Origin: Chitinophagales bacterium
GTDB taxonomy: Bacteria; Bacteroidota; Bacteroidia; Chitinophagales; Chitinophagaceae
Assembly (NCBI GenBank): GCA_030832085.1
Contig: JAURJU010000077.1
Location: forward strand, 1-64,000
Reading direction: 5' to 3'
DNA length: 64,000 nucleotides
Under the pieces are notes generated by a model. The model did not search any database. It saw only the letters and a program-made list of their open reading frames with translations, and was not told the DNA's origin. Positions within the stretch are counted from its first letter, which is position 1, and every line of letters begins with the position of its first letter. A program made the position numbers and the translations under genes. Positions 31,960 to 60,092 of this stretch are shown piece by piece.

Positions 31960-32184
31960 ATGTCAAAATTTTTAGCCGAGTTAAAATGGTTTTTTGGTGC
32001 GCTTTTGGCAGCTTGTATGTTATCTTTTTTGTTTCTGTTGATGGCTAAAATCAGCTTTCAACATGAAGATCCTCCGCCTTTTTTTACGCTGAGAAAATAT
32101 TTGGTCGGGATTGCAGTGATGCTCTGTGCGGTATATTCCACCCGATGGATGTTAGGGGCCATAAAACAGGCATTGTTGGGTTAG
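31960..32184 (+). CDS. Small two-helix membrane protein heading the eCIS operon
   Basis: A 74-residue protein with two predicted helices (about residues 9-30 and 47-66), a short loop FQHEDPPPFFTLRKY, and few charges. It is the first gene of the injection-system operon, 15 bp before the DUF4255 gene. It has no named domain. A membrane protein at the head of an eCIS operon is not part of the textbook particle; it could anchor the particle, act as a holin-like release protein or be unrelated. The ATG at 31960 follows the predicted promoter directly. Confidence 0.72.
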   Translation: MSKFLAELKWFFGALLAACMLSFLFLLMAKISFQHEDPPPFFTLRKYLVGIAVMLCAVYSTRWMLGAIKQALLG

Positions 32185-32199
32185 TACATACCATATTCT

Positions 32200-32850
32200 A
32201 TGATCCATCAGATTGTTTCCGCCTTTGTAAGCCAGTTAAACGAGTTCATTCGCAATGAACTGGGATTGGCTGACGATATTGTAATCGCCTCCAATTTAAT
32301 GGACATTAAAGGCGGGGCACTGATGCAGATTGACAACAAGGTCTGTGTCTTTGTGCAGAACATTGAGGAGGAAAAACTTTTAAAGAATACCAGCTTCCAT
32401 TCAAACAATGGCATGGCTTCTCAAATGTTCATCAACATTTATGTGGTTTTTGCAGCAAACTTTCCAGAGCCCAATTATCAAGAAGCCCTCCGTTATGTTT
32501 CATTGGTCATTGAGTTTTTTCAGGGTAAGCCATTGTTCGACAGGTCAAATACCCCGGAGTTGCCAACTTCGGTGGACAAGGTTGCCGTTGAATTTTTCAA
32601 TCAATCGATCCAGGACCTCAACAACTTGTGGAGTTTGATCGGAGCCAAATATGTGCCGTCAGTGGTGTACAAGGTGAAGACCTTGCCATTCCATCAGCAG
32701 ATGATCAAGCAGGATGTTGGTCAGATCCTGTCCGGACAAGACCTGGATGCGGCAAGAAAGAATTTGTTGCGAAGATTGGCTGCAGATGGGCTGTCTGAAG
32801 CCTTGGCGTTAGGAGAGAAACAAGCCAAAACAGATGAAACAAGAAATTAG
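32200..32850 (+). CDS. DUF4255 protein, tail terminator/cap of the eCIS (Afp16/Pvc16-like)
   Basis: A 216-residue protein of the DUF4255 family, known in Afp and PVC particles as the terminator at the end of tube and sheath. It opens MIHQIVSAFVSQLNEFIRNELGL. The conserved block NIYVVFAANFPEPNYQEALRYVSLVIEFFQGKPLFD follows near residues 85-120, and EFFNQSIQDLNNLWSLIGAKYVPSVVYKV near 135-165, both hallmarks of the family. In canonical loci this gene comes last; here it precedes the sheath. It would limit the length of the growing sheath and tube. Confidence 0.9.
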   Translation: MIHQIVSAFVSQLNEFIRNELGLADDIVIASNLMDIKGGALMQIDNKVCVFVQNIEEEKLLKNTSFHSNNGMASQMFINIYVVFAANFPEPNYQEALRYVSLVIEFFQGKPLFDRSNTPELPTSVDKVAVEFFNQSIQDLNNLWSLIGAKYVPSVVYKVKTLPFHQQMIKQDVGQILSGQDLDAARKNLLRRLAADGLSEALALGEKQAKTDETRN

Positions 32851-33692
32851 TGGGGCAAGAAAAGCAAATATCCAAATCATCCACGCAATTCGGACTGTCG
32901 GTTCGTTTTTTTGTTCTGCACGACTACTATGTCAACGGAATTTGTCCTGATTTTGGTTTTCAACCCACCACCGAAACCTTGCTTAAACTTCGGAACAACC
33001 GGCTTAAGTTCAGGGCGCTGAACAATGGGCTGGAATTGGCCTTGGACATGTACCATGATTTCTCGCATCCGATTTTTCAGCAGGAGCAGACATTTACCTT
33101 CATCTTCAGGAATACGAATCCTCAATTTCTTCAGTTCACGGAAATGCCTTTTCAATCTTCTGGCTTGCTGCTGTTTGATACGGCAAATGCCCGGGGGGAA
33201 TGCTTGCATGAGGAAAATTTCGTTGGCCCTCAGTATTTTCTGGAAACAGATAAAGATGGGATACACGGCGTCCTGCATTTGAGGCATCAACGCAGTAAAC
33301 CATTGTGGGGTGAAGGTGCCAAGCCTTACCAATATTATATTCGTTTCCCCGCCAGGAAAGTTCGGATTCGGTACATTTTTTATGGCATAACGGATTTGGC
33401 AAAGATTTTTTCAAAATATACTATTGAAAAAATTGATAATTCGCATCAAATCTTTACATTTAGCTCTGCTAAGATGATCGAACTAAAAAATGGAGAACCT
33501 GCCTTTGAGTGCACCTCAGAACAGGAAATTTTCATGAAAAACCTCTGGGATACCCCGTTGATGGTGAAACGTGAGAAAGGCGACGGCGCTCCATTTGATT
33601 ATCGAAAAACATTGCCTCATCCTAAACCAGATGGGGTGAAACACGACAAAACCATAAATGGCTTTGTCACAGAAGTATTCGTAAAACTATAA
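32850..33692 (+). CDS. Unknown beta-rich eCIS protein, cap or cap-adaptor candidate
   Basis: A 280-residue protein with a GTG start overlapping the previous TAG by one base, so it is tightly coupled to the DUF4255 gene. No known domain is recognised. It is rich in strands and aromatics (FGLSVRFFVLHDYYVNGICPDFGF; YQYYIRFPARKVRIRYIFYG) and has a C-terminal stretch of charged residues. There is no signal peptide or helix. Its place between the terminator and the sheath suggests a structural part at the distal end of the particle, but that is inference. It ends 10 bp before the sheath gene. Confidence 0.85.
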   Translation: MGQEKQISKSSTQFGLSVRFFVLHDYYVNGICPDFGFQPTTETLLKLRNNRLKFRALNNGLELALDMYHDFSHPIFQQEQTFTFIFRNTNPQFLQFTEMPFQSSGLLLFDTANARGECLHEENFVGPQYFLETDKDGIHGVLHLRHQRSKPLWGEGAKPYQYYIRFPARKVRIRYIFYGITDLAKIFSKYTIEKIDNSHQIFTFSSAKMIELKNGEPAFECTSEQEIFMKNLWDTPLMVKREKGDGAPFDYRKTLPHPKPDGVKHDKTINGFVTEVFVKL

Positions 33693-33702
33693 CACATAAA
33701 CA

Positions 33703-35205
33703 ATGGCAACAGTTCTAGCAACCCCAGGCGTTTATATAGAAGAAAAAAGCGCTTTCGCCTCGTCCGTAGTTTCAGTAGCAACTGCAGTTCCTGCCTTCAT
33801 TGGGTATACCCAAACGGCCAGAAGAGGAACAAAGTCAATCAAGAATGTACCTACAAGAATTTCTTCGTTCGCAGAGTTTGAAGAGTTCTTTGGCAGTGCA
33901 CCCAAGACCCAATTCACCTTGTCAGAAGATGCTGGCGCAGTGGGCTACAAGTTAGATGTCAATCCGGCATCACACTTTATTCTGCACAGCGCCATGCGTT
34001 TCTTTTTCGCCAATGGTGGCAGTGATTGCTACATTGTATCTATCGGCGATTATTCCAACGGAGTGAATGCCAAGGATTTCAATGATCTGGCAACTGAATC
34101 TGGTTTGCCAACCTTGTTAAAGGAAATGGAACCAACATTGGTGGTCATTCCTGAAGCTGTACTGTTGAGTGAGGAAGAGTGTTTTTCTCTACAGCAGGCA
34201 ATGCTTTTGCATTGTGGCTTCGAAATGAAAAATCGCTTTGCAATTCTCGATGTTTACAATGGCAACAAGGCAAGAACATTTGATGAGTCAGATTTGGCAA
34301 ATCGTTTCCGTGAAGGCATTGGATCCAATTTCCTTCAATGGGGTGCAGCTTACTACCCATTTGTAAAAACAACAATTATTGCTTCAAGCGAGGTGGATTT
34401 TACCAATATCGAAAACCGGGATGCGTTGGTAGAACTCTTGTCCAAAGACGTAAATAGCGATTTGGAAGCCAAGATCATCAACCAGGCACGTGCCGAAGCC
34501 ATTAAGGCTGAGATAGCAAAGATCAGTACAGCTTCTTCTTCAAATGATATCAGCTCATTGCAAGCTACACTGAAAACCATCAGCCCAAAACTGAATGGTA
34601 TTCTTAAGGATATGGTGGACTTCCTGAATGTATTGCCTCCAAGTGCAGGCATGGCGGGTGTTTTTACCATGGTTGATGCATCCATCAATGTGGCCAAATC
34701 TCCGGCAAATGTGAGCCTTGGTTCAGTGGTTTCCCCTGCAGTGTTGATTACCGGCGACAATCAGGAGGAGTTAAATCTTCCATTGAATGGTAAAGCAATC
34801 AATGCAATCAGAAGCTTCCCAGGCCGTGGTGTTCTTGTATGGGGAGCACGTACATTGGACGGTAACAGTCAAGATTGGAGATATGTAAGCGTTCGCCGTA
34901 CCATGACCTTCTTGGAGCAAAGTATCAAAAGTGCTGCAGAAGGCTTTGTATTTGAACCAAACAATGATACAACATGGTCTACGTTACGCGCAACTGTAAA
35001 CAACTTCCTGGTCAATCAGTGGCAATCGGGACTACTGGCAGGATTGTCACCAGAAGATGCTTTCGAGGTTAATATTGGATTAGGTGTTACCATGACTCCT
35101 AATGATATTTTGGATGGTATTTTGCGCATGTCTATAAAAGTAGCGATCACAAGACCTGCTGAATTCATCGTGATTACCTTCGAACAACAACAGCAAAAAT
35201 CCTAA
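33703..35205 (+). CDS. Contractile sheath protein (Afp2/Pvc2-like)
   Basis: A 500-residue tail sheath subunit. The N-terminus TPGVYIEEKSAFASSVVSVATAVPAFIGYTQTA is the classic sheath start, used for the linker to the next subunit. The C-terminal domain has IRSFPGRGVLVWGARTLDGNSQDWRYVSVRRTMTFLEQSI, and DGILRMSIKVAITRPAEFIVITFEQ is the C-terminal linker strand. Only one sheath gene is present, unlike the three of Afp. Contraction of this sheath drives the tube into a target. It is followed by tube protein 1 after 46 bp. Confidence 0.96.
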   Translation: MATVLATPGVYIEEKSAFASSVVSVATAVPAFIGYTQTARRGTKSIKNVPTRISSFAEFEEFFGSAPKTQFTLSEDAGAVGYKLDVNPASHFILHSAMRFFFANGGSDCYIVSIGDYSNGVNAKDFNDLATESGLPTLLKEMEPTLVVIPEAVLLSEEECFSLQQAMLLHCGFEMKNRFAILDVYNGNKARTFDESDLANRFREGIGSNFLQWGAAYYPFVKTTIIASSEVDFTNIENRDALVELLSKDVNSDLEAKIINQARAEAIKAEIAKISTASSSNDISSLQATLKTISPKLNGILKDMVDFLNVLPPSAGMAGVFTMVDASINVAKSPANVSLGSVVSPAVLITGDNQEELNLPLNGKAINAIRSFPGRGVLVWGARTLDGNSQDWRYVSVRRTMTFLEQSIKSAAEGFVFEPNNDTTWSTLRATVNNFLVNQWQSGLLAGLSPEDAFEVNIGLGVTMTPNDILDGILRMSIKVAITRPAEFIVITFEQQQQKS

Positions 35206-35251
35206 GAAAAGTATTAGAACTTATTAATTAATACCAATTAAATTATAAAAA

Positions 35252-35722
35252 ATGGCAGCTCCTACAGCCGGTGCAGGCGATAATCAAGATCAATTTTGGC
35301 CCTTACCGAAATTTTATTTTTCTGTTGATATTGGAGATCAAACAGATATTGCCTTCCAGGAAGTTTCTGGTTTGGACATTGATACGGATGTTATCGAATA
35401 CCGTCATGGCAACAGTAAGATCCACTCCACCATTAAAATGCCAGGCCTCAAGAAATATGGTGACATCACCATGAAAAAAGGTGTATTTACAAAAGACAAC
35501 AGGTTCTTTGATTGGATCAAGGAAATCAGCCTCAACACCTACAAGCGTCTTACCGTTGTGGTTCGCTTGATGGATGAGGATGGAAATGCCAAGATGACCT
35601 GGACGCTGACCAATGCTTGGCCTAAACAAGTTACTTCTACAGATATGAACTCTCAAAGCAGCGAAGCCGCGATTGAAACCATCGTATTCGTTCATGAGGG
35701 TCTTACTGTCGCTGCAGCTTAA
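35252..35722 (+). CDS. Inner tube protein 1 (gp19/Hcp-like, Afp1-like)
   Basis: A 156-residue tube protein of the T4 gp19 family. PKFYFSVDIGDQTDIAFQEVSGLDIDTDVIEYRHGN is the family opening, followed by MPGLKKYGDITMKKGVFTKDNRFFDWIKEI and the closing EAAIETIVFVHEGLTV. It would stack as hexamers to form the main tube lumen. A strong hairpin terminator lies 18 bp after the stop, so sheath and tube 1 can be made in excess over the rest of the operon, matching their high copy number in the particle. Confidence 0.95.
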   Translation: MAAPTAGAGDNQDQFWPLPKFYFSVDIGDQTDIAFQEVSGLDIDTDVIEYRHGNSKIHSTIKMPGLKKYGDITMKKGVFTKDNRFFDWIKEISLNTYKRLTVVVRLMDEDGNAKMTWTLTNAWPKQVTSTDMNSQSSEAAIETIVFVHEGLTVAAA

Positions 35723-35739
35723 TCTCATTAGAATCCCAT

Positions 35740-35774: not shown

Positions 35775-35790
35775 GTGAAGATTACAGGGA

Positions 35791-36345
35791 ATGGCAAGAA
35801 AATCATCCAATAAAACAGGAAAAAGTTCTGGAAGCAGTTCCAAAACGTCAAGAAGTTCCAAATCGGGAATCACAAAAGTGATTACGCCTACGCTTTCTTT
35901 TAATTTTCATGTATTTATAGATGGTTTTAAGTCAGAGGCAGATTCCATGTTCAATGAAATTGGAGGAATGTCGTTTGAGCTGTCCGTTGAAGCCTATTCA
36001 GATGGGGGCAATAATGGTACTGTTCACCACCTGCCCAATGGATCGAAACATTCCAACCTGATCCTCAAAAGAGGGATTTCCCCAATGGGCTCACAGTTGA
36101 CAACGTGGTGCATGCAAACCATGAACTTTAAGGACAATAAAATCAGTCCTAAGGTTATTTCCATCATGTTAATGGGGCCTGATCCGAAAGCCAGTGAAAA
36201 TCCCCAATTGATTCCCATCCACACCTGGGAATTTTATGATGCCTTTCCCGTTAAATGGCAGATAAGTGAATTTGTTGCTGATAAATCCGCTTATGCCATA
36301 GAGTCCATTGAATTTGTTTATGCTGGAATTAAATCATTTGTTTAA
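35791..36345 (+). CDS. Tube protein 2 (Afp5-like) with basic Ser-rich N-terminus
   Basis: A 184-residue member of the gp19 tube family: LSFNFHVFIDGFKSEADSMFNEIGGMSFELSVEAYSDGG opens the domain, HSNLILKRGISPMGSQLTTWCMQTM follows, and AIESIEFVYAGIKSF closes it. In Afp-type particles such a second tube protein joins the tube to the baseplate hub. Here about 30 residues of Ser, Lys, Arg and Thr precede the domain (MARKSSNKTGKSSGSSSKTS and on), which is unusual. It is the first gene beyond the terminator. Confidence 0.92.
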   Translation: MARKSSNKTGKSSGSSSKTSRSSKSGITKVITPTLSFNFHVFIDGFKSEADSMFNEIGGMSFELSVEAYSDGGNNGTVHHLPNGSKHSNLILKRGISPMGSQLTTWCMQTMNFKDNKISPKVISIMLMGPDPKASENPQLIPIHTWEFYDAFPVKWQISEFVADKSAYAIESIEFVYAGIKSFV

Positions 36346-36356
36346 ACACTTAGAAA

Positions 36357-36572
36357 ATGCCTGTAGAAATTAAGGAATTGGTGATTCAAGCCAAAGCACA
36401 ATCAGCAGGAAATGGACAAAATAAAACTGCTGCAGAAGCGAATGATAAGGAAAAAGTTGCCAGTTCAGCTTCCGGTGTTGTTGGCAGGATCACCCATGAT
36501 CTTCGCCGGCAAATCGTGGAAGATTGCGTTGCGGAGGTCCTGGAAAAGCTTGAAAAAAATAGAATGATATGA
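36357..36572 (+). CDS. DUF5908 family small protein
   Basis: A 71-residue protein starting MPVEIKELVIQAKAQ, the opening of the DUF5908 family found in Bacteroidota injection-system operons between tube and LysM genes. The middle is low-complexity (Ala, Asn, Lys), and the C-terminal helix is RRQIVEDCVAEVLEKLEKN. It may be a small assembly factor or the counterpart of Afp6. It overlaps the next gene by 4 bp (ATGA). Confidence 0.85.
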   Translation: MPVEIKELVIQAKAQSAGNGQNKTAAEANDKEKVASSASGVVGRITHDLRRQIVEDCVAEVLEKLEKNRMI

Positions 36573-37261
36573 GTGGTGGCCTGAGTTCTCTGAGTATCAA
36601 TGGGTTCAAATCCTTCAGCAACGGTGTCACAAAAGACTCAGTAGGACGTTTCGTTTTGCAATTGAATCCGGCAGAACTTAAAGTTGGATATGTTGTAAAT
36701 GACAAAAAAGGCCCAGAAAACAACGAAGAGGCTAAATCAGCCGTAGGAAATCCAACCAATCCACAAACACTTTCTAAAGCAAAAGAATCAATAAGCTTTG
36801 ATTTCATTATTGATACCACTGGGGCAGTAAAACAAAACGCATCAGTAAAAACAGTTGCCAAAGCTGTTGCACAATTGCGTAAAATTACCGTTGATAAAAT
36901 CAGTGGAACACATTCCACCCCCTATGTTTCAGTACAATGGGGTGGTATTATTTTCAAGGGAAAAGTGGATTCACTAAAAGTAGATTACACCCTTTTTGAC
37001 AAAGACGGGAATCCCATAAGAGCTAAAATTTCCATCAGCATTACTGAACATTATGACACCAGTGCAGATTCTGTCAACAACCAGAGTCCGGACATCACGC
37101 GCATACCTACCATAAAGCAAGGCGATAGCTTGATTTCACTGTGCGATGAATTTTATGATGACCCCAATATGTTTATTCGTATTGCAGAATATAACGCTCT
37201 GCCTACCTTTCGAAGACTTACCCCTGGAACCATATTAGAGTTCCCTCCTATTGAAAAATAA
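36569..37261 (+). CDS. LysM-containing baseplate hub protein (Afp7-like)
   Basis: A 230-residue protein. The first 160 residues form a tail-tube-initiator-like domain: VGRFVLQLNPAELKVGYVVN is the typical opening and PYVSVQWGGIIFKGKVDSLKVDYTLFDKDGNPIRAKISISI the conserved core. A C-terminal LysM-type segment (IKQGDSLISLCDEFYDDPNMFIRIAEYNAL...LTPGTILEFPP) occupies about 185-228. In Afp/PVC it connects spike and tube. It is translationally coupled to DUF5908 upstream and abuts the VgrG-like gene downstream. Confidence 0.92.
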   Translation: MSGGLSSLSINGFKSFSNGVTKDSVGRFVLQLNPAELKVGYVVNDKKGPENNEEAKSAVGNPTNPQTLSKAKESISFDFIIDTTGAVKQNASVKTVAKAVAQLRKITVDKISGTHSTPYVSVQWGGIIFKGKVDSLKVDYTLFDKDGNPIRAKISISITEHYDTSADSVNNQSPDITRIPTIKQGDSLISLCDEFYDDPNMFIRIAEYNALPTFRRLTPGTILEFPPIEK

Positions 37262-37265
37262 ACCA

Positions 37266-39077
37266 ATGGCAACATCAAAGCTCACCCCGCTAAGTACCTC
37301 TTCAGATCCTGTTTCGTACACCATAAAAGTGAACAAAAAGGAATTGAAAAGTGATTTGATTCTAATGAGGGTTGATGTTTGGGGAGAAATCAATAAAATC
37401 AGTCGGGCCTCCATTTCTATCATTGGCGGCAATATTCATTTGAATACATTCAAGGAAAGTGAGCTTGCTGATTTTGAACCGGGTAAAGAAGTAGAAATTT
37501 CGTTGGGATTTAAGCAAGCCAACTCCATTGTATTCAAAGGAATCATACTTAAACACCGCATTGAAGTAAGGGCAGGGTATGAACGACTGAGAACCAGAAG
37601 CGTATTGATATTGGAATGTGCCGATAAGGCAATAAAAATGTCGATTGGAAGAAAATCCGAAATCTTTGAAAACAAAAAAGACAGCGAAGTATTGACCTCC
37701 CTTGCTTCTGCTGCAGGACTAACCAAAACAATTTCACCCACCACCACCAAACACGCTTTTCTCACCCAGTATGATATGACAGACTGGGACTTTATGCTTC
37801 GCCGCGCAAAAGCAAATGGTTTGGTGGTCATCAACACGGAAAACGGCTTGAACATCAAGCCGCCAGCCATTTCCGGTGCCAGTGCGGCTACCATCACATA
37901 CGGAAAAGATACAACCAGTTTTCAGGGAGAAGTTGATTCTTCTTCACAATTACAGGGACTGGAAGCCTTTGCCTGGGATTATTTCAAAGAGACAGATGTT
38001 AAACAAAAAGGATCAGAACCAGCCAACTTGTCAAAACCTGGTAACCTCACTGGAAAAACAATTGGGAAAACTGCAAGTCCAGCTACCTATACCCTAGGCT
38101 TAAAAACGCCAATTGATATCTCAACGGAAGTAAAAGACCTTGCCAATGCGGGCCTTGTGGAATCCAGGTTGAAACGGGTTCGTGGCAGTATTACATTCAG
38201 GGGAATGAACAAAATAAAGCTTGGCTCCATCATCACCCTTGCTGGTTTTGGCACCCGTATGAATGGTGATACACTTGTTACTTCTGTACGCCATCTTTTA
38301 GAAGACGGCGTATTTTCCACTACAGCAGGATTTGGACTTCCAAGAAATGATCAGGAACCCGATCTGATGGAAGAAAACAATTCATGGATCAGTGCCATCA
38401 AGGGATTGCATGTGGGCATCGTGAAGAAAATTGATGGTGACCCTGCTAAAAAAAATCGCATTCAGGTCAATATACCATCTTTAAAAGGTACAGGAAACGG
38501 ATTGTGGTGCATCCTCTCCCAATTTTATACTACCAATCAGGCAGGAAGTTTTTTTATTCCCGAATTGAACACCCCTGTGGTTGTTGGATTTTTGAATGAA
38601 GACCCGCGCTACCCTGTTGTACTCGGTTGTTTGTACAACAACAAATCGAAGCCAAAAGAAACCATCAACAAAGACAATACTGTAAAATCAATCCTTACGA
38701 AGGCCAAACTCAACTTGAAATTTGATGATAAGGATAAGGTGATCACCATTCAAACCCCCGGTGGCCACAGCATCATGATTTCAGATAAGAAAAAAGGAAT
38801 CAGCGTTGTTGATAAAAATGGAAATTCTATGGTAACCAGTGACAAGGGCATCACCATTAGCAGCAAAAAAAGCATTATATTGGATAGCAAGGACAAGATC
38901 AAGATCACTGCCACCAAAGGAGTGACGACCTCCGCATCAGGGGGAGATATTGTCATGAGTGGCAAGGGCGTTTCCGCCAAAGCCACTGCAAAAATATCCA
39001 TGAAAGCCAATGGTGGGGCAGATATCAATTCTACTGCCACAATTAATATTAAGGGATCAATGGTGAACATCAACTAA
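37266..39077 (+). CDS. Spike protein, VgrG/gp27-gp5-like (Afp8-like)
   Basis: A 603-residue protein. The N-terminal gp27-like region (about 1-370) includes FEPGKEVEISLGFKQANSIVFKGIILKHRIEV and TQYDMTDWDFMLRRAKANGLVVINT, diagnostic of VgrG/phage late control D proteins. An OB-fold follows (GLHVGIVKKIDGDPAKKNRIQVNIPS...GSFFIPELNTPVVVGFLNEDPRYPVVLGCLYN). The C-terminal 130 residues form a triple beta-helix needle of Lys, Ser and Ile-rich repeats. No C-terminal toxin domain is added. It punctures the target envelope. The ATG at 37266 is preferred to a TTG at 37251. Confidence 0.94.
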   Translation: MATSKLTPLSTSSDPVSYTIKVNKKELKSDLILMRVDVWGEINKISRASISIIGGNIHLNTFKESELADFEPGKEVEISLGFKQANSIVFKGIILKHRIEVRAGYERLRTRSVLILECADKAIKMSIGRKSEIFENKKDSEVLTSLASAAGLTKTISPTTTKHAFLTQYDMTDWDFMLRRAKANGLVVINTENGLNIKPPAISGASAATITYGKDTTSFQGEVDSSSQLQGLEAFAWDYFKETDVKQKGSEPANLSKPGNLTGKTIGKTASPATYTLGLKTPIDISTEVKDLANAGLVESRLKRVRGSITFRGMNKIKLGSIITLAGFGTRMNGDTLVTSVRHLLEDGVFSTTAGFGLPRNDQEPDLMEENNSWISAIKGLHVGIVKKIDGDPAKKNRIQVNIPSLKGTGNGLWCILSQFYTTNQAGSFFIPELNTPVVVGFLNEDPRYPVVLGCLYNNKSKPKETINKDNTVKSILTKAKLNLKFDDKDKVITIQTPGGHSIMISDKKKGISVVDKNGNSMVTSDKGITISSKKSIILDSKDKIKITATKGVTTSASGGDIVMSGKGVSAKATAKISMKANGGADINSTATINIKGSMVNIN

Positions 39078-39087
39078 AATAATTGAT

Positions 39088-39825: not shown

Positions 39826-39826
39826 C

Positions 39827-43612: not shown

Positions 43613-43616
43613 TTGT

Positions 43617-53100: not shown

Positions 53101-53306
53101 ATTGGGACCAGATGAAAAATACCAGACCAGAAACCTTTCAGGAAACATTTCTGCAAAGGGAAGGACGCCTTTATAAGATGGAAGATCGATGGGAGTTGGT
53201 AGTGGAGAAGAAGGCTTATGATATGCTCTTGGATAGTTTGCCATGGAATATTTCTATGATCCAATTGAGTTGGATGTCCGATAGATTAGTAGTAATTTGG
53301 AGATGA
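47151..53306 (+). CDS. Contractile injection system tape-measure protein (Afp14-like)
   Basis: A 2051-residue protein. The N-terminal 90 residues match the CIS_TMP start: IQRQVFQIDIDSESEFKPVSD and YVQIDRLEINLGNLDL. The C-terminal block is conserved too: GLVLLWPYLSRYFKLL near 1893-1908, then TQYLVN, DEKELMLNKLLCGAAFKFPIG near 1940-1960. Between them lie about 1800 helical, poorly conserved residues with Leu-rich stretches. It sets the particle length, so this large size hints at a long particle. It has the highest A+T content in the window. It overlaps the AAA+ gene by ATGA. Confidence 0.93.
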   Translation: MSDTHLIQRQVFQIDIDSESEFKPVSDILMQLMKNELRLFIDKTLSATVKSNEYVQIDRLEINLGNLDLKNIREEVITAFKNIFPSLVNQKISTLRTAKKSIFRSRDRNHQAILYFIAYGKKASWSPSDAPSIDHSIRTFVRKRKRNGVLKLWQYGSKDATIRARILNLLRIDDLLHLYLTTSKGVVIKEKKIWDNIIQLLQQHISYIPGKGEINAVIKENLMEFLIRSSASQKMDPLHNDPLDLLLGLHIDSMPASVAAKILNGKKGWNKSPTATAAIPHLERLLTRTGNSEIDISIPPLADFKLFLERGYIPRPLHDRGYSNINALFRYLMHHHIEELRVFLKVMGRKTLARGRFLDRVAQPNIEMFFAKVAPENAEMFKWIKDAYLPVHKIHHLIKQPLAKIIKSINEITLDIFTRENFNGISNEAFIEMHIRGMSQKLNVKTEILLHSIFQVERHKNNLLDNKFENFVAAIKNIKKGKGQTRFQVPALDEKGIEGKNKLEDSWNKSVDRDFILPTAVLKELLFLKKTGILGSYQVRVHEFLQDQIKLRKANQVNSEIVNDDIFIKLVQYLQLNETFFEEIILLSRELLTSSSVNNQSLLVKSVEKQNSYSAENENGKGLLEHLIKHRERYQPQDIRVLVNSFLKKERVSQHIFEQLVLILFNDRSKQIIKSLKTWFKINSMHLNKNMIDSLQSRFIHLSLQFTDPQRNLSRIFINLQETVDQEIQQHLKTPEEVRNVFSDRGELVFQQQKAKKRSPVFIKENQLLALYSIIQLENELEGIVSDSFYNNIIYSFDLLRWKYRDEFFEILQKNSTNPEFIQFLTDESNLPIWKAIVSIIPELVSRRMNELIRSTNFLFQFLSLTTLTKEKLQEFIISNAIGFYFLSTDELPDAYSFFMHAIAQAKKEDVLTNEQDLVSVKRLHKNWPTFLRYIKLTNEDKKLSIANKQPELLLKAVKETYTWPLDFIPTLSTRAEKDIILQTSFFTFQFVLNKFSFPPGHAFENESIWQNALYFRTLLQQEIGLLTRVWSLAKTPRQKELFLKWVDEPMAFELLALIFNSTEEQIKLLIGEWTTRFSFLKATDWTTDLIDFIQTRKKPNDLQELIVQYLIQYTRIHQLDVLTVKKEIDVVNGFSVLRSLPIKTIRWKELPFILSLYEPNKPEWHNFILKWAIALDVFAPSVSSKVKLKFFLRLIERSQEKQSKIEISKDIEFYFKILSKLSAADAIPFLHLLHEEGVELLEFVRHQPGLMTSDHFPYEQIVLRVSATHLKDADRDTIFARILEELGSSTNSRLIPTALSKKLFSKTGQISTKNHLAKITDVWYNDLSKDFPFQFSDHLSLTQEAIQEVQKKWSTTFIRIYGVWMNGLSNLTLGTSEPNQIFLFKALAKIHKRNLHGSEKIHAVIFLEIIKSLPAGEKEVLDVLRAMNGLISFEFLLNTDVFYWLSYNLSKLEGITKYLDETNKEIHEKWMHKLGQSEIAESPVEKHPVLFDKKELSLMYEDDFLFSKIQAAAISPEMSMWLNEGFVDLGHEMNIRIEIHKTPVMLLLKSTFLHKTVISKLVDWLGPSELGRQFELLLKANIHSSTAYQSFQKLLVYFFEHAEKNEHVQFILLLNKLIQRNKYWNKEKFWVQFFQDTAALPTMEGAIIQHAIKRPSLRKSGAIKQIIQWHLDQSSTTTIAPLMVLEKYIIGDALTLINSNWTLHKIKKSIKQVWTSKDKHFPFLLFTLSSQELYRRRILELMEEFGEQTILEKIHPRLWAEWNLLENIFVQNFGISIPLNLGVKNDKDLWDMFLYNWSVKGYKLIDPLILLREVVLLLVPKLDLVALNTIRTFDSTVLGYTEKTTWKRLITMVPELRPASVEKSKPWKQTRETEIDLPDEEDAAEGITIQNAGLVLLWPYLSRYFKLLKLMEGNAFVDDRALERAIQLTQYLVNFKTNIDEKELMLNKLLCGAAFKFPIGTDFEPNAEEASMSRKILQGAVQNWDQMKNTRPETFQETFLQREGRLYKMEDRWELVVEKKAYDMLLDSLPWNISMIQLSWMSDRLVVIWR

Positions 53307-54652
53307 AAATGATCGAAAACATACATAGCACAAAATTCATAGAAAAGGAAATCAAATGGTTTTCACAGGTGCTGGATGCCAGGATGGAGAGTTACTTTCA
53401 AGATCAGGAATTTACGGTTGAATCGTTGGCAGCCCCCGCTGTGAATGCCAAAGAAAGTTTTTATGAAGAGCTGCTCTTGCGATTTCAAATGGGTCTTGCA
53501 GAACGGATTGCACTGATTATGGCACTTATCCCTCATCTGCAACCCTCAGTATTTGATCGCTTTTTTATTCAAAATAAATCTATTGGAAGAATTTTTTCTG
53601 AGTTTGGAGGCATTGATAACAGCATGCACAGGGGATTTATTCCAACGGGCGAAACGGTAAGTTTTGTCATTGCCGGAAAAGATATTTTCTTGCGCAAGGA
53701 AGTTGCCAAGTTGTTTACTGAGCATCACTTTTTTCGAAAACAGAACATTTTACGGTTGAATTACAATGGCAGTTCGGAAACAATTTGGGCTGGCAAATTG
53801 ACCATCTCTCAAGAATATTTATCTTATTTGGTCAAAGAGGAAAATTTTGAACCTGATTTTGATGCACAGTTTCCTGCTTCCAGAATCAATACATCATTGA
53901 ATATTCATGATTTGATTCTTAGCCCCAACATCATGGAAGAAGTACGGCACATACAAATCTGGATGGATCACCAGAAAGAGCTGAGCCAAAATGAACATCT
54001 TAGAAAGCGGTTTAAAAAAGGATACAGGGCTTTATTTTACGGATCACCGGGCACAGGTAAAACACTAACTGCCTCACTGTTGGGTGCAACCCATAATAGA
54101 AAAGTATATAGAATTGATCTGTCGCAAATCGTGTCGAAGTATATTGGTGAAACAGAGAAAAATTTAGCCAATATATTTGACATGGCTGAAAATAAAGATT
54201 GGATCCTGTTTTTTGATGAAGCCGAATCGCTGTTTTCCAAAAGAACTGATATTGGTGATTCAAAAGATAAATTTGCAAATCAGGAAACCTCTTTTTTGCT
54301 TCAACGCATCGAAGATTATGACGGGTTGATAATTTTGGCGACCAATTTAAAACCCAATATTGACAGGGCTTTTACCAGGCGTTTCCAATCTATTGTTAAC
54401 TTTACCATGCCGCAATCCAAAGAGCGGGAACAATTGTGGAGTAAAGCATTGAACAATATGGAAGTATCAGATAATGTAAGTTTTTCTGATTTGGCAAGAA
54501 AATTTGAGCTGTCAGGCGGATCAATCAACAATGCGGTTCAATTTGCCTGGTTACAGTCCAGAACAAGAGACCCTAAAGTCATCACTGTTGAAGATCTGAT
54601 ATTGGGAGCAACCCGCGAGTTGGGAAAAGAAGGAAAGTCATCAAAAAGTTAA
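53303..54652 (+). CDS. AAA+ ATPase of the eCIS (Afp15-like)
   Basis: A 449-residue AAA+ protein. An N-terminal helical domain (about 1-180) is followed by the ATPase: Walker A GSPGTGKT near residue 247, Walker B WILFFDEAESLFSKR near 303, sensor 1 in LIILATNLKPNID, and the Arg-finger region DRAFTRRFQSIV. It is the sign gene that separates eCIS from T6SS, which uses ClpV. Its role is in assembly of the particle. It is translationally coupled to the tape-measure gene (4-bp overlap at 53303-53306). The ATG at 53303 is used rather than a TTG at 53297. Confidence 0.95.
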   Translation: MKMIENIHSTKFIEKEIKWFSQVLDARMESYFQDQEFTVESLAAPAVNAKESFYEELLLRFQMGLAERIALIMALIPHLQPSVFDRFFIQNKSIGRIFSEFGGIDNSMHRGFIPTGETVSFVIAGKDIFLRKEVAKLFTEHHFFRKQNILRLNYNGSSETIWAGKLTISQEYLSYLVKEENFEPDFDAQFPASRINTSLNIHDLILSPNIMEEVRHIQIWMDHQKELSQNEHLRKRFKKGYRALFYGSPGTGKTLTASLLGATHNRKVYRIDLSQIVSKYIGETEKNLANIFDMAENKDWILFFDEAESLFSKRTDIGDSKDKFANQETSFLLQRIEDYDGLIILATNLKPNIDRAFTRRFQSIVNFTMPQSKEREQLWSKALNNMEVSDNVSFSDLARKFELSGGSINNAVQFAWLQSRTRDPKVITVEDLILGATRELGKEGKSSKS

Positions 54653-54653
54653 T

Positions 54654-55748
54654 ATGTTTCAATACCTGCACTGGCCTAAAGACTGGGGAACAGAAATTGC
54701 ATTGCAATTGTCGAGGGCTCAATATCAGGTATTGTTTGTAGTTGATGGAAACAATTTTGACAAGATTGAAGCTGAACTTTTTCGCTTTCAAAACAGGGGT
54801 GGGCACATAGAGCTCATTGCGTGTTTATATGCTTGGGAAAAAAACATCAGAAGTGTAAATGCACTGAAAAGATTGGCCAATGGGGGTGCAACTATCGGCT
54901 TGATCTCACTATCGGAAATGACTACCCCACCTGCCAATTCTGTAGTAATTGATAAAAGTAGATTAATAAGTGAAGTGGCTCTTGCAGAGGCTGAAAATCC
55001 TGGTGAAATTATTTTTTCTCAGGAAAGAATTTGGAAACAGTTGTTCGACAGGGCAGAACATTTTCAACCCTCGGAAACAGAGGTACAATTGCATTTCCAG
55101 GTTCAACCAAGTCATGTTGAACCTGGAGGCTTGGTAAAATTATATTGGGAAGTTCGTGATGCTGATTTTGCTGAGATTGAACCCGGTATAGGTGCAGTAC
55201 CAATGGTTGGACAATTGGAAGTTCCTGTTTTTGAAGACACACTATTTAGATTAAAGGGCAGCAACAAGTCATTGCTGCGGACAAAATCAGTATTCATAAA
55301 GACAGCACAACAAAATAACATTGTTCTATCCGTATTTGTTTTTGATGTGGTATCTAAAGCGTATATACCATTGGAATCAACAAAAGAACAGGGACATGTG
55401 TATGCTATTTTTGTTGGTGATAGAATAAGGATTGATTGGAATTCCTTGCCCATCGGAGTTTTATCTGAAGCAAAATTGGGTGATATACCCAATGAAAGTT
55501 CAATAAATCTTGAAGTCTTTTCGGATGAATCATTCAAATTTAAGCTTCGAACCATACAAGAGGATTTCATAGAGACGCTGCAAATTCTTGCCATTTCTGA
55601 TGAAAAAATAGATAGACCACTTAAAACAGTGAACCATGACCAATCAATTGAAACAACCGTGTTGAACAAAAAGAATCAAGAGCACAAACATGATGCTTCA
55701 ACAAGCTTTTTCCAAAAAATAGTTAATCTGTTAAGGATATGGAAATAA
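54654..55748 (+). CDS. Unknown eCIS-linked protein with Ig-like region
   Basis: A 364-residue protein 1 bp after the AAA+ gene. The first 150 residues look alpha/beta (QYQVLFVVDGNNFDKIEAELFRFQNRGGHIELIACLYAWEKN, then GGATIGLISLSEM), and could be a nucleotide-binding or PLD-like fold without a visible HKD motif. Residues about 165-225 form an Ig-like strand domain: VEPGGLVKLYWEVRDADFAEIEPGIG. The C-terminus is Lys-rich and may contact a partner. No signal peptide. Ten bases overlap the DUF4407 gene, so the two are co-translated. Confidence 0.82.
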   Translation: MFQYLHWPKDWGTEIALQLSRAQYQVLFVVDGNNFDKIEAELFRFQNRGGHIELIACLYAWEKNIRSVNALKRLANGGATIGLISLSEMTTPPANSVVIDKSRLISEVALAEAENPGEIIFSQERIWKQLFDRAEHFQPSETEVQLHFQVQPSHVEPGGLVKLYWEVRDADFAEIEPGIGAVPMVGQLEVPVFEDTLFRLKGSNKSLLRTKSVFIKTAQQNNIVLSVFVFDVVSKAYIPLESTKEQGHVYAIFVGDRIRIDWNSLPIGVLSEAKLGDIPNESSINLEVFSDESFKFKLRTIQEDFIETLQILAISDEKIDRPLKTVNHDQSIETTVLNKKNQEHKHDASTSFFQKIVNLLRIWK

Positions 55749-56839
55749 GACCGGTAAAGCCCTTAACACGTTTATTCATATTCTGCGCAGGAAGCAGCAT
55801 TGATGTGTTGATGCAATGCCCGCGTTCAGAATGGATTAAGCACAGTGGTATTGGAGTTACGGTTTTCTTTACTGGGTTGTTGGCAACACTTTCATCATTT
55901 TATGCCTTCCAGCTCATCTTCCCCAATATTGTAGTAAGTTTTTTACTGGCATTGTTATGGGGTGCTATTATTTTCAACCTGGATCGTTATATCGTGTCTA
56001 GCTTTAGAATGAACCAAACCACAAAGGAGGAAATTTTTCAGTTGATTCCACGCATGATAATGGCAATTGCTATTTCAATCGTAATTTCAAAACCCCTGGA
56101 AATTGAGGTTTTTAAATTTGAAATCAATCAGGTTTTGGAGGGGGATAAAATTGTTCTGTTGGATTCATTTTCGCAACAGCATCAAAGAGAAATGGAAAAA
56201 TGGGATACGAAGACTGGTTCACTCAAAAATGAATTGAGGGGATATTTTGACCTAAAAGAAACCTATTACCGGGAATATTCATGTGAATGTGATGGCACCT
56301 GTGGAACCGGAAAAAAAGGCAGGGGAATAGAATGCTTCAATAAAAAAGAAAAATACGAATCCTACACCATAGAATATGAACAACATAAGCTGCGCATTGA
56401 AAAATTGATAAGAGAAATTGAGAAAGAAAAACAAAAAGCAACAGCAACTTTTGAAAAAAACAAAAAGACAATGGAAGATAGTTTTTCTTATGGCTTTTTG
56501 GCAAGGTTGAATGCATTGGGCAAATTAGACAGCATGGCAGCTTGGGCGATTACCATATTGTTGGCTTTGGTAGAAATTACACCGGTATTGACAAAAGTTT
56601 TTGCACCCAAAGGGCCTTATGATCATTTGCTGCAAATGGGGGAATATGATTATAAGGTAAAATATGTGCAAACTGTTTACAGAAAAAACCAGGAGTTTTA
56701 CCAAATGTCACCAGTAAATGCATCGCTTGAAAACAAGACCGAAAAAATTGAAAAAGAAGCAAGTCGCTCAGGTGAAAAAACAGAAGGAATAGAGCGATAC
56801 CGTAGATTAAAGGAACAAATTCAAAAATTAAACCCTTAA
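55739..56839 (+). CDS. DUF4407 membrane protein with Cys-rich coiled-coil loop
   Basis: A 366-residue membrane protein of the DUF4407 family. Three helices lie in the first 120 residues (GIGVTVFFTGLLATLSSFYAF; IVVSFLLALLWGAIIFNLDRY; LIPRMIMAIAISIVISKPLEIEVF). A long loop of about 140 residues has coiled-coil character and a Cys cluster (YREYSCECDGTCGTGKKGRG). A fourth helix is WAITILLALVEITPVLTKVF. A Lys/Glu-rich cytoplasmic tail follows. Its topology suggests a sensor or anchor; its position in the operon suggests that the particle interacts with the inner membrane. Confidence 0.9.
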   Translation: MEIRPVKPLTRLFIFCAGSSIDVLMQCPRSEWIKHSGIGVTVFFTGLLATLSSFYAFQLIFPNIVVSFLLALLWGAIIFNLDRYIVSSFRMNQTTKEEIFQLIPRMIMAIAISIVISKPLEIEVFKFEINQVLEGDKIVLLDSFSQQHQREMEKWDTKTGSLKNELRGYFDLKETYYREYSCECDGTCGTGKKGRGIECFNKKEKYESYTIEYEQHKLRIEKLIREIEKEKQKATATFEKNKKTMEDSFSYGFLARLNALGKLDSMAAWAITILLALVEITPVLTKVFAPKGPYDHLLQMGEYDYKVKYVQTVYRKNQEFYQMSPVNASLENKTEKIEKEASRSGEKTEGIERYRRLKEQIQKLNP

Positions 56840-56840
56840 A

Positions 56841-58115
56841 GTGAAATTGTTGTTTATTGACAAGTTAAGCTTGCTGATGATTTTATTTGTCCAACCATTT
56901 TTTTCTGATGGACAAGAATTGTCGTTGAAAAAAGAAAAGCAGTTTGCATTGCCAGCAAGCAATAAAGAAATTATTGTTGAAAACTTTAATGTAAACAAAG
57001 AGGATTTTCTTAAGAAACTCATTCCTCAAAATACTGCCACAGCCTCCGATTTTGTTCCAGATGTTTCACTTGGTGATAGTTTAAAAGTATTGCTAAGAGA
57101 CAGTGGAAAACTGAAAATCGGTTTGGATAGCATATACTTATTAAACCATCTCGTTCTTGAGGAAAATAAAATTCAATACCTGGCAAATATTGTCTTTTCC
57201 GTTAAGAGGTTAGGTGCTACGAAAAGTTTAAATTATGCGGTCAAGAAAGGCGATACCATCAGATTTAGTTATACCATTTTGAAAGGGGCTGGCTTGGATG
57301 AACTTGAGGTACTGGAAGGAAAAGAATTGAGATATGGTTTCTCAAAATCAAAAAAAAACGTAGAACAAAATGGTGAGTTTGTGGCCTCAGCCGATGAAAT
57401 AGTTGTTTTTAATCTTACCAACAAGGGAATCAACAGTTCTAAAGGGAAACTGCTGATTACCAGAAAGGAAATGCAACAAAAACTAAGTTTTGTTTTCAGC
57501 TGCGATACCCTTGACCACATTGTAAAGGAAATCAAGCAATTGCAAGATACGGTTACTGAAATATTGGTTAAAAAAACATTCAGCACTCCATCGAAAACGG
57601 ATATCACCCAATCAAATCGCGTTCAATTGAACATTCCTGTGCCTCCCAATAAAACACCCATTGCCATTGCATATTGGTTTGGAACCAAAGAACAAAACAG
57701 ATTGCAATGGAATGTGCTATCAGAAGCCGATAAGGAACACTCACCTTTAGAGGCTTATGTAACAAGAGAAATTTCTCGAGATGGAACATTAAACTTGCCT
57801 GAAGAACAAGGTTCTGAGATTGATATTTCCCTAAAAGACAAGGAGGGCTTGAGCCTAAGGCTATCAAACGGTGCAGTAAAAAAAACAAATTATGCTACGC
57901 CTACCTTAAATAAAAAATGGAACTACGCATGCTTCTCTATTCAAAAAAATATTTTTTTCCCAGAAACTTTCATCCTGGAGGTACAAAACAATTCAACTTT
58001 GTACAATACCATCACTGAGTTTGAAATGATAGGATTGTTTTTAAACGAATATCAAGCAGAAATAGAAACCAAAATAACCACTTGTAAAGAGTACGTAACA
58101 ATAAAGACATTATGA
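56841..58115 (+). CDS. Exported unknown protein in eCIS operon
   Basis: A 424-residue protein with a GTG start just after the DUF4407 stop. A signal peptide (MKLLFIDKLSLLMILFVQPFFSDG, cleavage near QEL) is followed by a strand-rich body of about 400 residues without a named family, e.g. VKKGDTIRFSYTILKGAGLDELEVLEGKELRYGFS. It resembles periplasmic or surface proteins with Ig-like folds. It overlaps the GH18-like gene by 4 bp. Exported proteins are not part of particles made in the cytoplasm, so this points to an envelope module. Confidence 0.82.
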   Translation: MKLLFIDKLSLLMILFVQPFFSDGQELSLKKEKQFALPASNKEIIVENFNVNKEDFLKKLIPQNTATASDFVPDVSLGDSLKVLLRDSGKLKIGLDSIYLLNHLVLEENKIQYLANIVFSVKRLGATKSLNYAVKKGDTIRFSYTILKGAGLDELEVLEGKELRYGFSKSKKNVEQNGEFVASADEIVVFNLTNKGINSSKGKLLITRKEMQQKLSFVFSCDTLDHIVKEIKQLQDTVTEILVKKTFSTPSKTDITQSNRVQLNIPVPPNKTPIAIAYWFGTKEQNRLQWNVLSEADKEHSPLEAYVTREISRDGTLNLPEEQGSEIDISLKDKEGLSLRLSNGAVKKTNYATPTLNKKWNYACFSIQKNIFFPETFILEVQNNSTLYNTITEFEMIGLFLNEYQAEIETKITTCKEYVTIKTL

Positions 58116-59830
58116 TTCATTATTTAAAAATATTTTTGCTCCTCCTGTTTTTGAATATTTTTTCAGGTTGCAAGGAATATTCAAAATTGAAAAGCGGCAC
58201 ACGCAGGGTTTCTTCAGAACTTTCCCTCCTTAAAAAATCAGGTAACTTTATAAAGGGGCTTGGAGCTGATCGCAATGCGCCTGACTCTGCAGATTTGGTG
58301 ATGACACCAATCAAGCAAAAAAACCTTTTAAACAGTTATGATTATTTGTACGATTGGTTAAATGGAAAAAATTCAACTTTACGGGCAGATAATTTTCAAT
58401 GGGATTCAAGCCGTAACACATATACAATATTTGATTCATCATCCAGAAGACTTCATCCCGATATTGAAGTATATGGATGGCATCCATATTTTATGGGTGA
58501 ACTGTGGAAAACATACCCATATGCGTTGCTTTCTACGATTTCATTTTTTTCATATGCTGTAGATGAAGAAACAGGATCATATAGCAATCCGGATCACATC
58601 AACCAATGGAGAAATATAGGCATGGTCGACTCTGCGCATGCCCACAACAAAAGAGCCCTGCTCACCGTCTCTTGTCATGGTGACAAACAGGCAAACCGCT
58701 TTTTAGAAAATAATTTGGCCTGGACAACCTTGGCTGATTCTGTTAGTAGCTTATTGCAGGAAAAAAATGCAGATGGCGTTGAACTTGATTTCAGAAATTT
58801 TTCTGAAGACAAGCGTGTTGCATTTGTGAATTTTGTAAAGTACTTCAGGGAGCGGATGGAAAAGAAAATAACAAACAAAATATTTTATCTGGCAGTCAGC
58901 TTGCCGCCTGGCAATGTCAACCAATTGTTTGATGTAAAAGAGATTCAGGTTTATGCTGAGGCCATGGTCATCAGAGGGTATGATCTTCATGAATTAAATC
59001 AAGAAAAAGGATATGCTGCTGTTGCTCCTCTGCGTGTAGATGATGCTGAGGGCTTTAGCCTTGAGTCTGTTGTGAACGAATATTTGAATGCTGGAATTGA
59101 TGCGTCAAAAACCATTTTAGCTTTACCGCTTTATGGTACACAATGGAAAGGATCAAATAATGGGGATGATTTCTATGCATCTGATTTTGATAAAAAAATC
59201 ACATATAAAGAGATCAAGGACCTGTACAACTCTTTGGATACCACGTTAGAATTAGTAGCGAATTTAGATCCAGTGATGATGACCAACTATTACATGTTGG
59301 AATTCCCTGACAGTACCAATGTTGAATGCTGGTTTGACGATGATTACACATTAGGAAAAAAAATGAACTTCGCATTCGCCAGAAAGTTGAAAGGAGTTGG
59401 ACTTTGGGCATTGGGCTATGACAATGGACGGTCGGAAATTTGGAATCTCATCGACAAAAAATTGACAACAGATACTTTGGAAGTAACCGATCCAATTATG
59501 GAAATCGAAGGATATCCCATTAAAGTGGCTTCTTATATTGACAAGCACTCCAATCTGTTCCTGACAACGTCTATCATTATGGCTTTGGCATTTTTAATCG
59601 CATTGCTTATTGCTTTTTCAGATTGGCGTGTACGTGATGCCATTTTCAACAATCAGTTCAACCATTTTGTATTTATTATTGTAGCGACGTTGACAATCCT
59701 GCCCATATTATCAATGGTTGGTTTTTTGGGAAGGGGCAAATGGCAGATTGTGTTATCCTTTTTAACTGGAATATTGGTCGGTTATGTCTTTTTGCAGTTG
59801 AAAACTTATTTACGCTTCAAACGGCCTTAG
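58112..59830 (+). CDS. GH18-like lipoprotein with membrane helices, altered catalytic motif
   Basis: A 572-residue protein. The N-terminus has a lipobox (NIFSGCKE, Cys near residue 20). The GH18-like barrel spans about 100-460: IEVYGWHPYFMGELWKTYPYALLSTISFFSY, KRALLTVSCHGD, then D221-G-V-E-L-D-F-R-N, and ILALPLYGTQWKG and FARKLKGVGLWALGYDNGR. The family motif DxxDxDxE thus has Glu for the middle Asp and Arg for the catalytic Glu. Three helices near the C-terminus fix it in the membrane. A chitinase-like or peptidoglycan-binding protein without hydrolytic activity is likely. It may help the injector through the wall. Confidence 0.85.
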   Translation: MIHYLKIFLLLLFLNIFSGCKEYSKLKSGTRRVSSELSLLKKSGNFIKGLGADRNAPDSADLVMTPIKQKNLLNSYDYLYDWLNGKNSTLRADNFQWDSSRNTYTIFDSSSRRLHPDIEVYGWHPYFMGELWKTYPYALLSTISFFSYAVDEETGSYSNPDHINQWRNIGMVDSAHAHNKRALLTVSCHGDKQANRFLENNLAWTTLADSVSSLLQEKNADGVELDFRNFSEDKRVAFVNFVKYFRERMEKKITNKIFYLAVSLPPGNVNQLFDVKEIQVYAEAMVIRGYDLHELNQEKGYAAVAPLRVDDAEGFSLESVVNEYLNAGIDASKTILALPLYGTQWKGSNNGDDFYASDFDKKITYKEIKDLYNSLDTTLELVANLDPVMMTNYYMLEFPDSTNVECWFDDDYTLGKKMNFAFARKLKGVGLWALGYDNGRSEIWNLIDKKLTTDTLEVTDPIMEIEGYPIKVASYIDKHSNLFLTTSIIMALAFLIALLIAFSDWRVRDAIFNNQFNHFVFIIVATLTILPILSMVGFLGRGKWQIVLSFLTGILVGYVFLQLKTYLRFKRP

Positions 59831-59831
59831 C

Positions 59832-60092
59832 ATGTTGAAAAAAATAGCAGATGAACTGGGATTCTTTATCATAAAACTGGTGATTGCCTTAGCCATTCTT
59901 CCCGTTTTACTGTATTGGTTTGATTTTAGATCTTCCAACGAGGCAATGAACAAGGTTGAACAACTTTTTTTAATCGAAATATGCGTACTGGTTTTATTCT
60001 GTTCACTATTTGTTCTATACATCCTTCGATTTCTGCTCTCCCTCTTGTTTAAACAAAATAAAGAAAAAACGGAGGGTAAAAAACAACCATAG
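59832..60092 (+). CDS. Small two-helix membrane protein ending the eCIS operon
   Basis: An 86-residue protein 1 bp after the GH18-like gene. Two helices are predicted (about residues 10-28 and 47-71), followed by a Lys/Glu-rich tail (NKEKTEGKKQP). It has no named domain. Its size and topology resemble those of the first gene of the operon, but there is no clear sequence likeness. Small membrane proteins at both ends of the operon could be release or anchoring factors. Confidence 0.75.
   Translation: MLKKIADELGFFIIKLVIALAILPVLLYWFDFRSSNEAMNKVEQLFLIEICVLVLFCSLFVLYILRFLLSLLFKQNKEKTEGKKQP

Follow-up and report, generated by a model that had tools for sequence, protein, structure and literature searches.

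We examined a 64,000-nucleotide stretch of contig JAURJU010000077.1 from a Chitinophagales bacterium (hereafter, the window). Between positions 31960 and 60092, all on the forward strand, lie the genes of a contractile injection system (CIS), and a module of five genes follows directly behind them (Table 1). We propose that the CIS particle docks on the inner side of the producing cell's envelope, at a platform built by the module, and fires outward in the manner of a type VI secretion system (T6SS). We consider this about an even bet.

In the proposed arrangement, a GH18-like protein would place a glycan-binding fold in the periplasm while three inner-membrane helices hold it. Together with a small two-helix membrane protein (smTM), a DUF4407 protein (four helices and a large cysteine-bearing loop), and an exported protein, it would form a platform that extends from the inner membrane into the periplasm. 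The remaining module protein, the soluble g15, has PLD-like and Ig-like parts and would provide the platform's cytosolic face. A short fibre of the Cis13 type would join the particle's baseplate to the platform. Docked particles would then fire outward, much as a T6SS does but with other parts, and a nearby nSTAND1-WD40 sensor perhaps controls the firing. A fuller account is that an extracellular-type CIS (eCIS) particle became cell-bound through a newly built complex: a mostly degenerate GH18 would grip the glycan wall of the producing cell, a short fibre of a kind that finds prey in other systems would here be a plug, and the nSTAND sensor may license firing. We hold this fuller account more tentatively.

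The envelope module and its linkage to CIS

The initial annotation of the window placed the module behind the particle genes without a break, and we confirmed this. From the AAA+ gene onward, the spacings between genes are +1, -10, +1, -4, and +1 bases. Throughout the operon the spacing is between -11 and +15 bases, except for spacings of 46, 68, and 223 bases in the tube and hub part. A scan of positions 53200-60200 for promoter-like and terminator-like sites found no excess over shuffled sequences. The CIS genes and the module are likely to be one expression unit.

As annotated, four of the five trailing genes encode membrane or exported proteins (DUF4407, the exported protein, the GH18-like protein, and smTM). 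The first, g15, is soluble by our analysis. (Signal-like starts, lipoboxes, and membrane helices were identified with regular expressions and simple hydropathy, with no trained topology predictor.) g15 has no Pfam match of its own and no membrane helix by hydropathy. A homologue of g15 in another genome (G335) has a PLD-like domain (PLDc_2, 1.9e-26), and a profile of 39 members of the g15 family matches that protein with a probability of 99.8 over 345 columns. Most relatives of g15 have a basic C-terminus. The DUF4407 protein scores 220.6 bits against PF14362, over the gathering cut-off of 31.3 bits, and its large loop lies between hydrophobic segments 3 and 4. In some relatives of the exported protein, there is a cysteine near the signal-like start, and 1 of 34 members of this family matches GOLD/p24 (1.4e-7). 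PHROGs and NCBIfam were uninformative about the uncharacterised module proteins. PDB searches with the g15 and exported-protein family profiles gave best E-values of 0.38 (g15) and 0.063 (the exported protein), and PADLOC had no match for the four module proteins that were scanned.

A small membrane protein also heads the operon, as the initial annotation had it, and this protein is a relative of the smTM at the tail. We built a hidden Markov model (HMM) from 12 smTM genes that lie just 5' of pvc16 in other loci (11 of them directly after GH18), with the window's copies excluded. The HMM matches exactly two of the 1143 open reading frames in the window, which are the head and tail copies, and it matches no reversed proteins. 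(A direct comparison of the two copies gave 0.031.) We conclude from these matches that the head and tail proteins are homologous. The simplest account would be that the module moved from the front of the operon to the back and left an smTM gene at both ends.

We then asked how often the module accompanies other CIS. Our phylum sample was 296 Bacteroidota genomes, and we considered the 61 with the tape-measure family CIS_TMP to be CIS genomes. We rejected DUF4407 alone as a marker, as 92 of the 296 genomes have a DUF4407 protein above the cut-off. According to the place tables of both families, DUF4407 lies near the tape measure in just 1 of the 61 CIS genomes, which is the window's own. This rules out the module as a general trait of Bacteroidota eCIS.

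The DUF4407 proteins of the window and of a distant relative, Lewinella sp. W8 (G450), have CECDGTCGTGK[KR]GRGxEC in common, and this sequence is absent from the 43 other DUF4407 rows (41 genes) that we compared. A DNA pattern for CxC[DN]GTCGTG (the Cys motif) matched 54 stretches of the collected genomes: by record title, 51 of them belong to Bacteroidota groups, and three (L098, L119, and L133) are labelled merely as bacterium. The reversed control pattern had no match in 48 genomes. Within the 296-genome sample, the pattern matches the window only. The 54 stretches were selected by the motif, so its presence in each is by construction, and most of them are 8 kb long, so gene counts are lower bounds. 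(L088 comes from the source organism of the window or from one nearly identical to it, with 99.9% identity over 8000 bases, and the pairs L115/L127 and L091/L136 are each from one genome.)

DUF4407 is present in all 54 stretches, g15 in at least 52, the exported protein in at least 45, GH18 in at least 42, and smTM in at least 22. In 46 of the 54, either the stretch itself contains CIS genes or the tape measure is matched on that contig no more than 28 kb away, which rules out a chance neighbourhood of module and CIS. (The genome search for tape measures took in 50 of the loci; in the other four, L090, L102, L104, and L111, CIS genes were already visible.) Among the remaining eight, L092, L095, L096, L128, and L135 reach contig ends, and one is a second Cys-motif DUF4407 gene on a 6.7-kb contig without the other module genes (L136; L158, G480). 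We return to the other two below. CIS_TMP was found in 44 of the 48 genomes with the Cys motif, as compared to 61 of the 296 genomes sampled across the phylum. In two of the four genomes without a CIS_TMP match, the retrieved stretch contains CIS genes (L094/L154 and L125). The search for the trailing genes in other Bacteroidota CIS, which the initial annotation had proposed as a check, had a mixed outcome: stretches with the motif are mostly linked to CIS, and most of the sampled CIS genomes lack the module, which in one sense is the outcome that the annotation had named as refuting its idea.

Two gene orders recur across lineages. In the first, the module precedes the operon (g15-DUF4407-exported-GH18-smTM-pvc16-sheath); in the second, which is the window's, the module lies behind the AAA+ gene. 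(In Lewinella sp. W8, g15 and DUF4407 are inverted.) As the module can be on either side of the operon, its linkage to the CIS outlives rearrangement.

The module and the particle also diverge together. Distances between module proteins track those of the AAA+ protein (n = 9-17) and Pvc16 (n = 10-12), with Mantel r of 0.81-0.98, and in each of the eight tests, none of 5000 permutations gave as high a value. These correlations point to shared inheritance and are not evidence of contact. We built a tree from 38 sheath rows, excluding fragments shorter than 1100 bases. A branch with support of 98/92 separates all 12 module-bearing sheaths, including the window's, from the 24 other rows. The far side of a split with support of 100/100 holds AlgoCIS and 16 of those 24. 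In the near half, five genomes (G088, G064, G158, G092, and G282) have GH18 at the CIS but not the Cys-motif DUF4407, and three (G206, G289, and G174) have neither the short fibre nor GH18 at the CIS. C-terminal hydrophobic segments were counted in four of the five GH18 proteins from the first group, and the match of G092's GH18 extends to position 567 of 573 in the profile. The module marks one clade of CIS, not eCIS generally. Overall, the evidence strongly favours an affiliation of the trailing genes with the particle.

The short fibre and the GH18-like protein

The gene between those for baseplate J and the Afp12-like protein was not singled out in the initial annotation. It encodes a short fibre with the baseplate end of Cis13, as found in the thylakoid-anchored CIS (tCIS) of Anabaena (All3316; Table 1). 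A membrane helix was not found in the fibre: the highest 19-residue hydropathy mean is 1.4 in 11 rows.

Full-length matches to this fibre (E < 1e-90) occur in 6 of the 61 CIS genomes, and in all six a GH18 gene lies 3-20 kb away from the tape measure on its contig. None of the other 55 has a GH18 match within 100 kb of the tape measure on the same contig (contig ends were not bridged). The Fisher test for this tie gives 1.8e-8, which is uncorrected for kinship and reflects few independent events in the tree. Two of the 55 genomes, G254 and G178, have at their CIS a longer fibre with only the baseplate end in common, and there is no GH18 there, so it is the short form of the fibre that GH18 accompanies. 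(The long fibre of G178, L166 7503-9527, begins like the short fibre and, by eye, has an S74-chaperone-like end.) The short fibre and the GH18-like protein with its membrane segments form a wider core than the DUF4407 module. Because the fibre has the baseplate end of Cis13 without a helix, and because all six genomes with the fibre have GH18 at the CIS, we suggest that the fibre inserts as a plug into a membrane platform of separate proteins.

We also examined the GH18-like protein. Two features can be added to its initial description: there are three hydrophobic segments at its C-terminus, and arginine takes the place of the catalytic glutamate. The active-site motif of GH18 is DxDxE, and the window's protein has ELDFR at this site, which is not what is expected of an active GH18 glycosidase. 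For residue counts we used 39 of 56 rows, after dropping fragments of under 295 amino acids and exact copies. (L096, a shorter copy of L143, was retained.) The catalytic glutamate is gone in 17 of the 39 rows, including the window's, and the full DxDxE motif is present in 4 of the 39. Otherwise, members of the family have many residues in common, including W123, P125, G222, Y341, and W444. R508, between the first two anchor segments, is nearly invariant; if the predicted topology is right, it would be on the cytosolic side and is a candidate contact. In many of the members, including the window's, binding to the wall would fit better than cutting it. Because the catalytic glutamate is so often gone, we favour a grip by GH18 over lysis.

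Proposed docking and its alternatives

The initial annotation had suggested that the particle docks at its own envelope or leaves through it in a controlled way. The module is indeed tied to the particle. Docking is our best reading of that tie, and release is a rival.

If the module is for release, then its membrane and periplasmic proteins would open the envelope for egress, with a holin-like small protein, a GH18 that acts on peptidoglycan, and a spanin-like exported protein, and the particles would act outside the cell via the short fibre. This is unlikely, in our view, but several observations fit it. The small two-helix protein and the GH18 fold are both present, 22 of the 39 GH18 rows keep the catalytic glutamate, and an M23 peptidase with a Csd3_N2 domain is encoded by the second gene past GH18 at G064's CIS (L182 5911-7353, reverse strand). 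(As a separate observation, G158 has a gene of similar length and start to that peptidase gene, at L183 5425-6873.) Also, eCIS are generally described as released by lysis, and AlgoCIS, from Algoriphagus machipongonensis, is compatible with that (PMC8894135; here and below, statements from papers refer to excerpts of their text). The loss of the catalytic glutamate in the other rows speaks against release only in part. GH18's three anchor segments also speak against it, and release by itself gives no account of why GH18 is tied to one short fibre.

Another rival shares the docking step: particles would dock in the cell's own membrane and fire there when a phage or stress sets off the nSTAND1-WD40 sensor, and so would kill the cell, as proposed for the CIS of Anabaena and Streptomyces. 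The sensor gene lies near the window's module, and nSTAND-WD40 genes are present in at least 13 of the 54 related stretches. The Streptomyces CIS requires the membrane protein CisA (PMC12237407), and the tCIS is linked to stress and ghost cells (PMC8894136). Still, the sensor gene was not seen in 41 of the 54 stretches (most of which span only 8 kb), and the 13 have no control for how frequent such genes are beside other operons. In the window, a gene for a TonB-dependent receptor lies between the module and the sensor gene. We consider a death device quite improbable. (In G483, at L154, an nSTAND-WD40 gene lies inside the CIS operon, on the opposite strand and between two tube genes. None of the STAND-related papers listed by our literature search mentions contractile injection.)

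Finally, the module could be a passenger: a cassette with general envelope or conflict functions that travels alongside CIS operons but has no part in how the particle works. DUF4407 is common in genomes without CIS, a trio of related genes lies away from CIS genes in G335, and two genomes have the module apart from the CIS. Against this, the Cys-motif DUF4407 is usually linked to CIS, the same neighbours recur in two different positions, the module and particle genes diverge together, and the fibre is tied to GH18. We think that a mere passenger is very unlikely.

Several observations weigh against docking. First, a release cassette would show the same co-inheritance as a platform, and the GH18 rows that keep the catalytic glutamate are the majority counted above. 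Second, in the two genomes just mentioned (G489 and G521), the module is apart from CIS genes in the 20 kb that were read of contigs of 35 and 47 kb (L100 and L137). These contigs have no tape measure, and their genomes have one elsewhere. Third, the trio in G335 (L065 6487-10260) comprises an exported protein, a g15-type protein with PLD and Ig parts, and a DUF4407 without the Cys motif, and no CIS gene was found in the 60 kb that were read. Here the same kinds of protein may have a defence-like use. (The trio adjoins a GHKL-like gene, which matches the REase_II model at 6.8e-12, and a gene that by eye is methylase-like.) Fourth, compared with the sheath, the fibre tip shows lower conservation in 8 of 11 pairs and higher conservation in 3. 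In eight pairs, the tip is 32-80% identical to the window's, as compared to 43-89% for the sheath. There is no measured yardstick for the rate in tips that bind targets, and we consider the conservation of the tip to be weak support for docking. Fifth, none of the five module proteins was recognisable as an outer-membrane pore, and an outward shot would need a route across the outer membrane. Finally, SalCIS, the nearest solved relative, was solved as a particle.

We also searched for known membrane-complex proteins of T6SS, and neither the Pfam matches of the five proteins encoded by the module (E up to 0.1) nor the NCBIfam matches (E up to 0.01) include any; the coverage of Bacteroidota complexes in these libraries is unverified.

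Among characterised systems, the tCIS of Anabaena is one of the closest. Its baseplate J and the baseplate end of its Cis13 resemble the window's, and if docking holds, the two systems would work in the same way. The tCIS is anchored to thylakoids via Cis12 and a C-terminal membrane helix of Cis13 (PMC8894136), whereas the window's fibre has no such helix and separate membrane proteins are encoded. AlgoCIS is a related particle by its sheath, but its sheath is in the other half of the tree, it was observed in the cytoplasm and never anchored (PMC8894135), and it attaches to bacteria by Alg19, a fibre of 1443 residues (PMC13314943). The closest solved sheath is that of SalCIS (PDB:9r9h, 9r9i, 9r9n, and 9rce), which groups with the sheaths of G092 and G282 (99/96), two genomes whose CIS loci have both GH18 and the short fibre. 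As so close a relative is in the PDB, part of our finding may already be known to its depositors.

Other likenesses are more general. T6SS subtype 4 (of Amoebophilus) and the Bacteroidales injection systems are also CIS of Bacteroidota, and homologues of Aasi_0556 have been suggested to aid their anchoring (PMC12210884). In Streptomyces CISSc, the CIS-encoded membrane protein CisA is needed for function (PMC12237407), but CisA is one single-pass protein, while the window encodes several membrane and exported proteins, and we liken the two by description, not by sequence. The mini-fibres of eBAP2, which we also liken by description, are short, have a baseplate end of about 50 residues, and occur in Bacteroidota among others; unlike the plug proposed here, they are read as target binders, with no mention of GH18 in the excerpts (PMC12923769). 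Our literature search (which did not include preprints and included few subscription papers) found no published link of DUF4407 or of this module to CIS. For GH18, none of the papers listed concerns injection systems, and these were too small a share of the matches to show absence.

If docking is correct, it would be a further way to anchor a contractile needle. This bears on how eCIS-type particles become free, membrane-anchored, or self-killing, and the literature that we saw has few anchoring solutions. The GH18-like protein with membrane segments and the short fibre are together a candidate sequence marker for the mode of action. By record title, strains among the Cys-motif matches include Belliella aquatica CGMCC 1.12479, Mongoliibacter ruber DSM 27929, Psychroflexus salis CGMCC 1.12925, Neolewinella lacunae KCTC 42187, and Lewinella sp. 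W8.

Particle genes and neighbouring genes

The initial annotation described a complete set of eCIS particle genes, and our searches bear this out. Matches to Pfam or to PDB structures identify the terminator, sheath, tube, hub/spike, gp25, baseplate J, tape measure, and AAA+ components expected of the eCIS/T6SS subtype 4 lineage. Pfam recognises most of the parts. The baseplate J gene has no Pfam match and was identified via the PDB. The Afp12-like assignment combines a weak family match with a homologue in G450 (8e-113) at the same place in the locus. The CIS_tube family protein presumably has a hub-adaptor role.

Table 1. Genes of the CIS operon, the envelope module, and their neighbours in the window
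Feature	Position	Strand	Evidence or remark
Fic protein with DUF4172 N-terminal part, just before the CIS on the opposite strand	30502-31614	-	Fic 2.2e-17; PADLOC SoFic 8.7e-44
smTM, small two-helix membrane protein (head copy)	31960-32184	+	HMM 1.6e-9
Tail terminator/cap, Pvc16_N	32200-32850	+	PF14065 1.9e-25
Possible second cap protein (Cis16b-like)	32850-33692	+	weak PDB match to 'SalCis16b - cap', E 0.057
Sheath	33703-35205	+	PF17482 1.4e-13; PDB 9r9h 9.3e-146; AlgoCIS 2e-100
Inner tube 1	35252-35722	+	PF06841 3.5e-45
Inner tube 2	35791-36345	+	PF06841 3.3e-29
CIS_tube family protein	36569-37261	+	PF19266 1.8e-30
VgrG-like hub/spike	37251-39077	+	PF04717 5.5e-17; PF05954 8e-10; NF033848 8.3e-37 (below its cut-off)
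PAAR spike tip	39088-39414	+	PF05488 6.7e-16
gp25 baseplate wedge	39415-39825	+	PF04965 1.9e-19
Baseplate J/Cis11-like, 1261 aa	39827-43612	+	PDB AlgoCIS baseplate J 6.4e-84; tCIS All3317 2e-77
Short fibre, Cis13-type (g11)	43617-44357	+	family profile against tCIS Cis13 (All3316) residues 1-38, 1.7e-4; Bdellovibrio Bd2133 2.2e-10
Afp12/Cis12-like baseplate wedge, 931 aa	44359-47154	+	TIGR02243 2e-5, far under cut-off
Tape measure (CIS_TMP), 2051 aa	47151-53306	+	PF19268 3e-82
AAA+ ATPase of the CIS	53297-54652	+	PF00004 3.7e-26
Module gene 1 (g15): soluble, degenerate PLD-like N-terminal part, Ig-like part, basic C-terminus	54654-55748	+	family profile
Module gene 2: DUF4407, four hydrophobic segments, loop with CECDGTCGTGKKGRGIEC	55739-56839	+	PF14362 3.6e-65
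Module gene 3: exported protein	56841-58115	+	signal-like start, alignment A2
Module gene 4: GH18-like, lipobox, three C-terminal hydrophobic segments	58112-59830	+	PF00704 2.5e-28
Module gene 5: smTM, small two-helix membrane protein (tail copy)	59832-60092	+	HMM 1.4e-10; two hydrophobic segments
TonB-dependent receptor	60151-63078	-	Plug 6.4e-13
nSTAND1-WD40, C-terminal part; possible regulator	63183-64000	-	nSTAND1 2.6e-49; frame about 63186-66413, past the window's end

The possible second cap protein has a homologue after pvc16 in many related loci. Homologues of the AAA+ protein adjoin the tape measures of other CIS, and the AAA+ protein also matches the IetA models of PADLOC.

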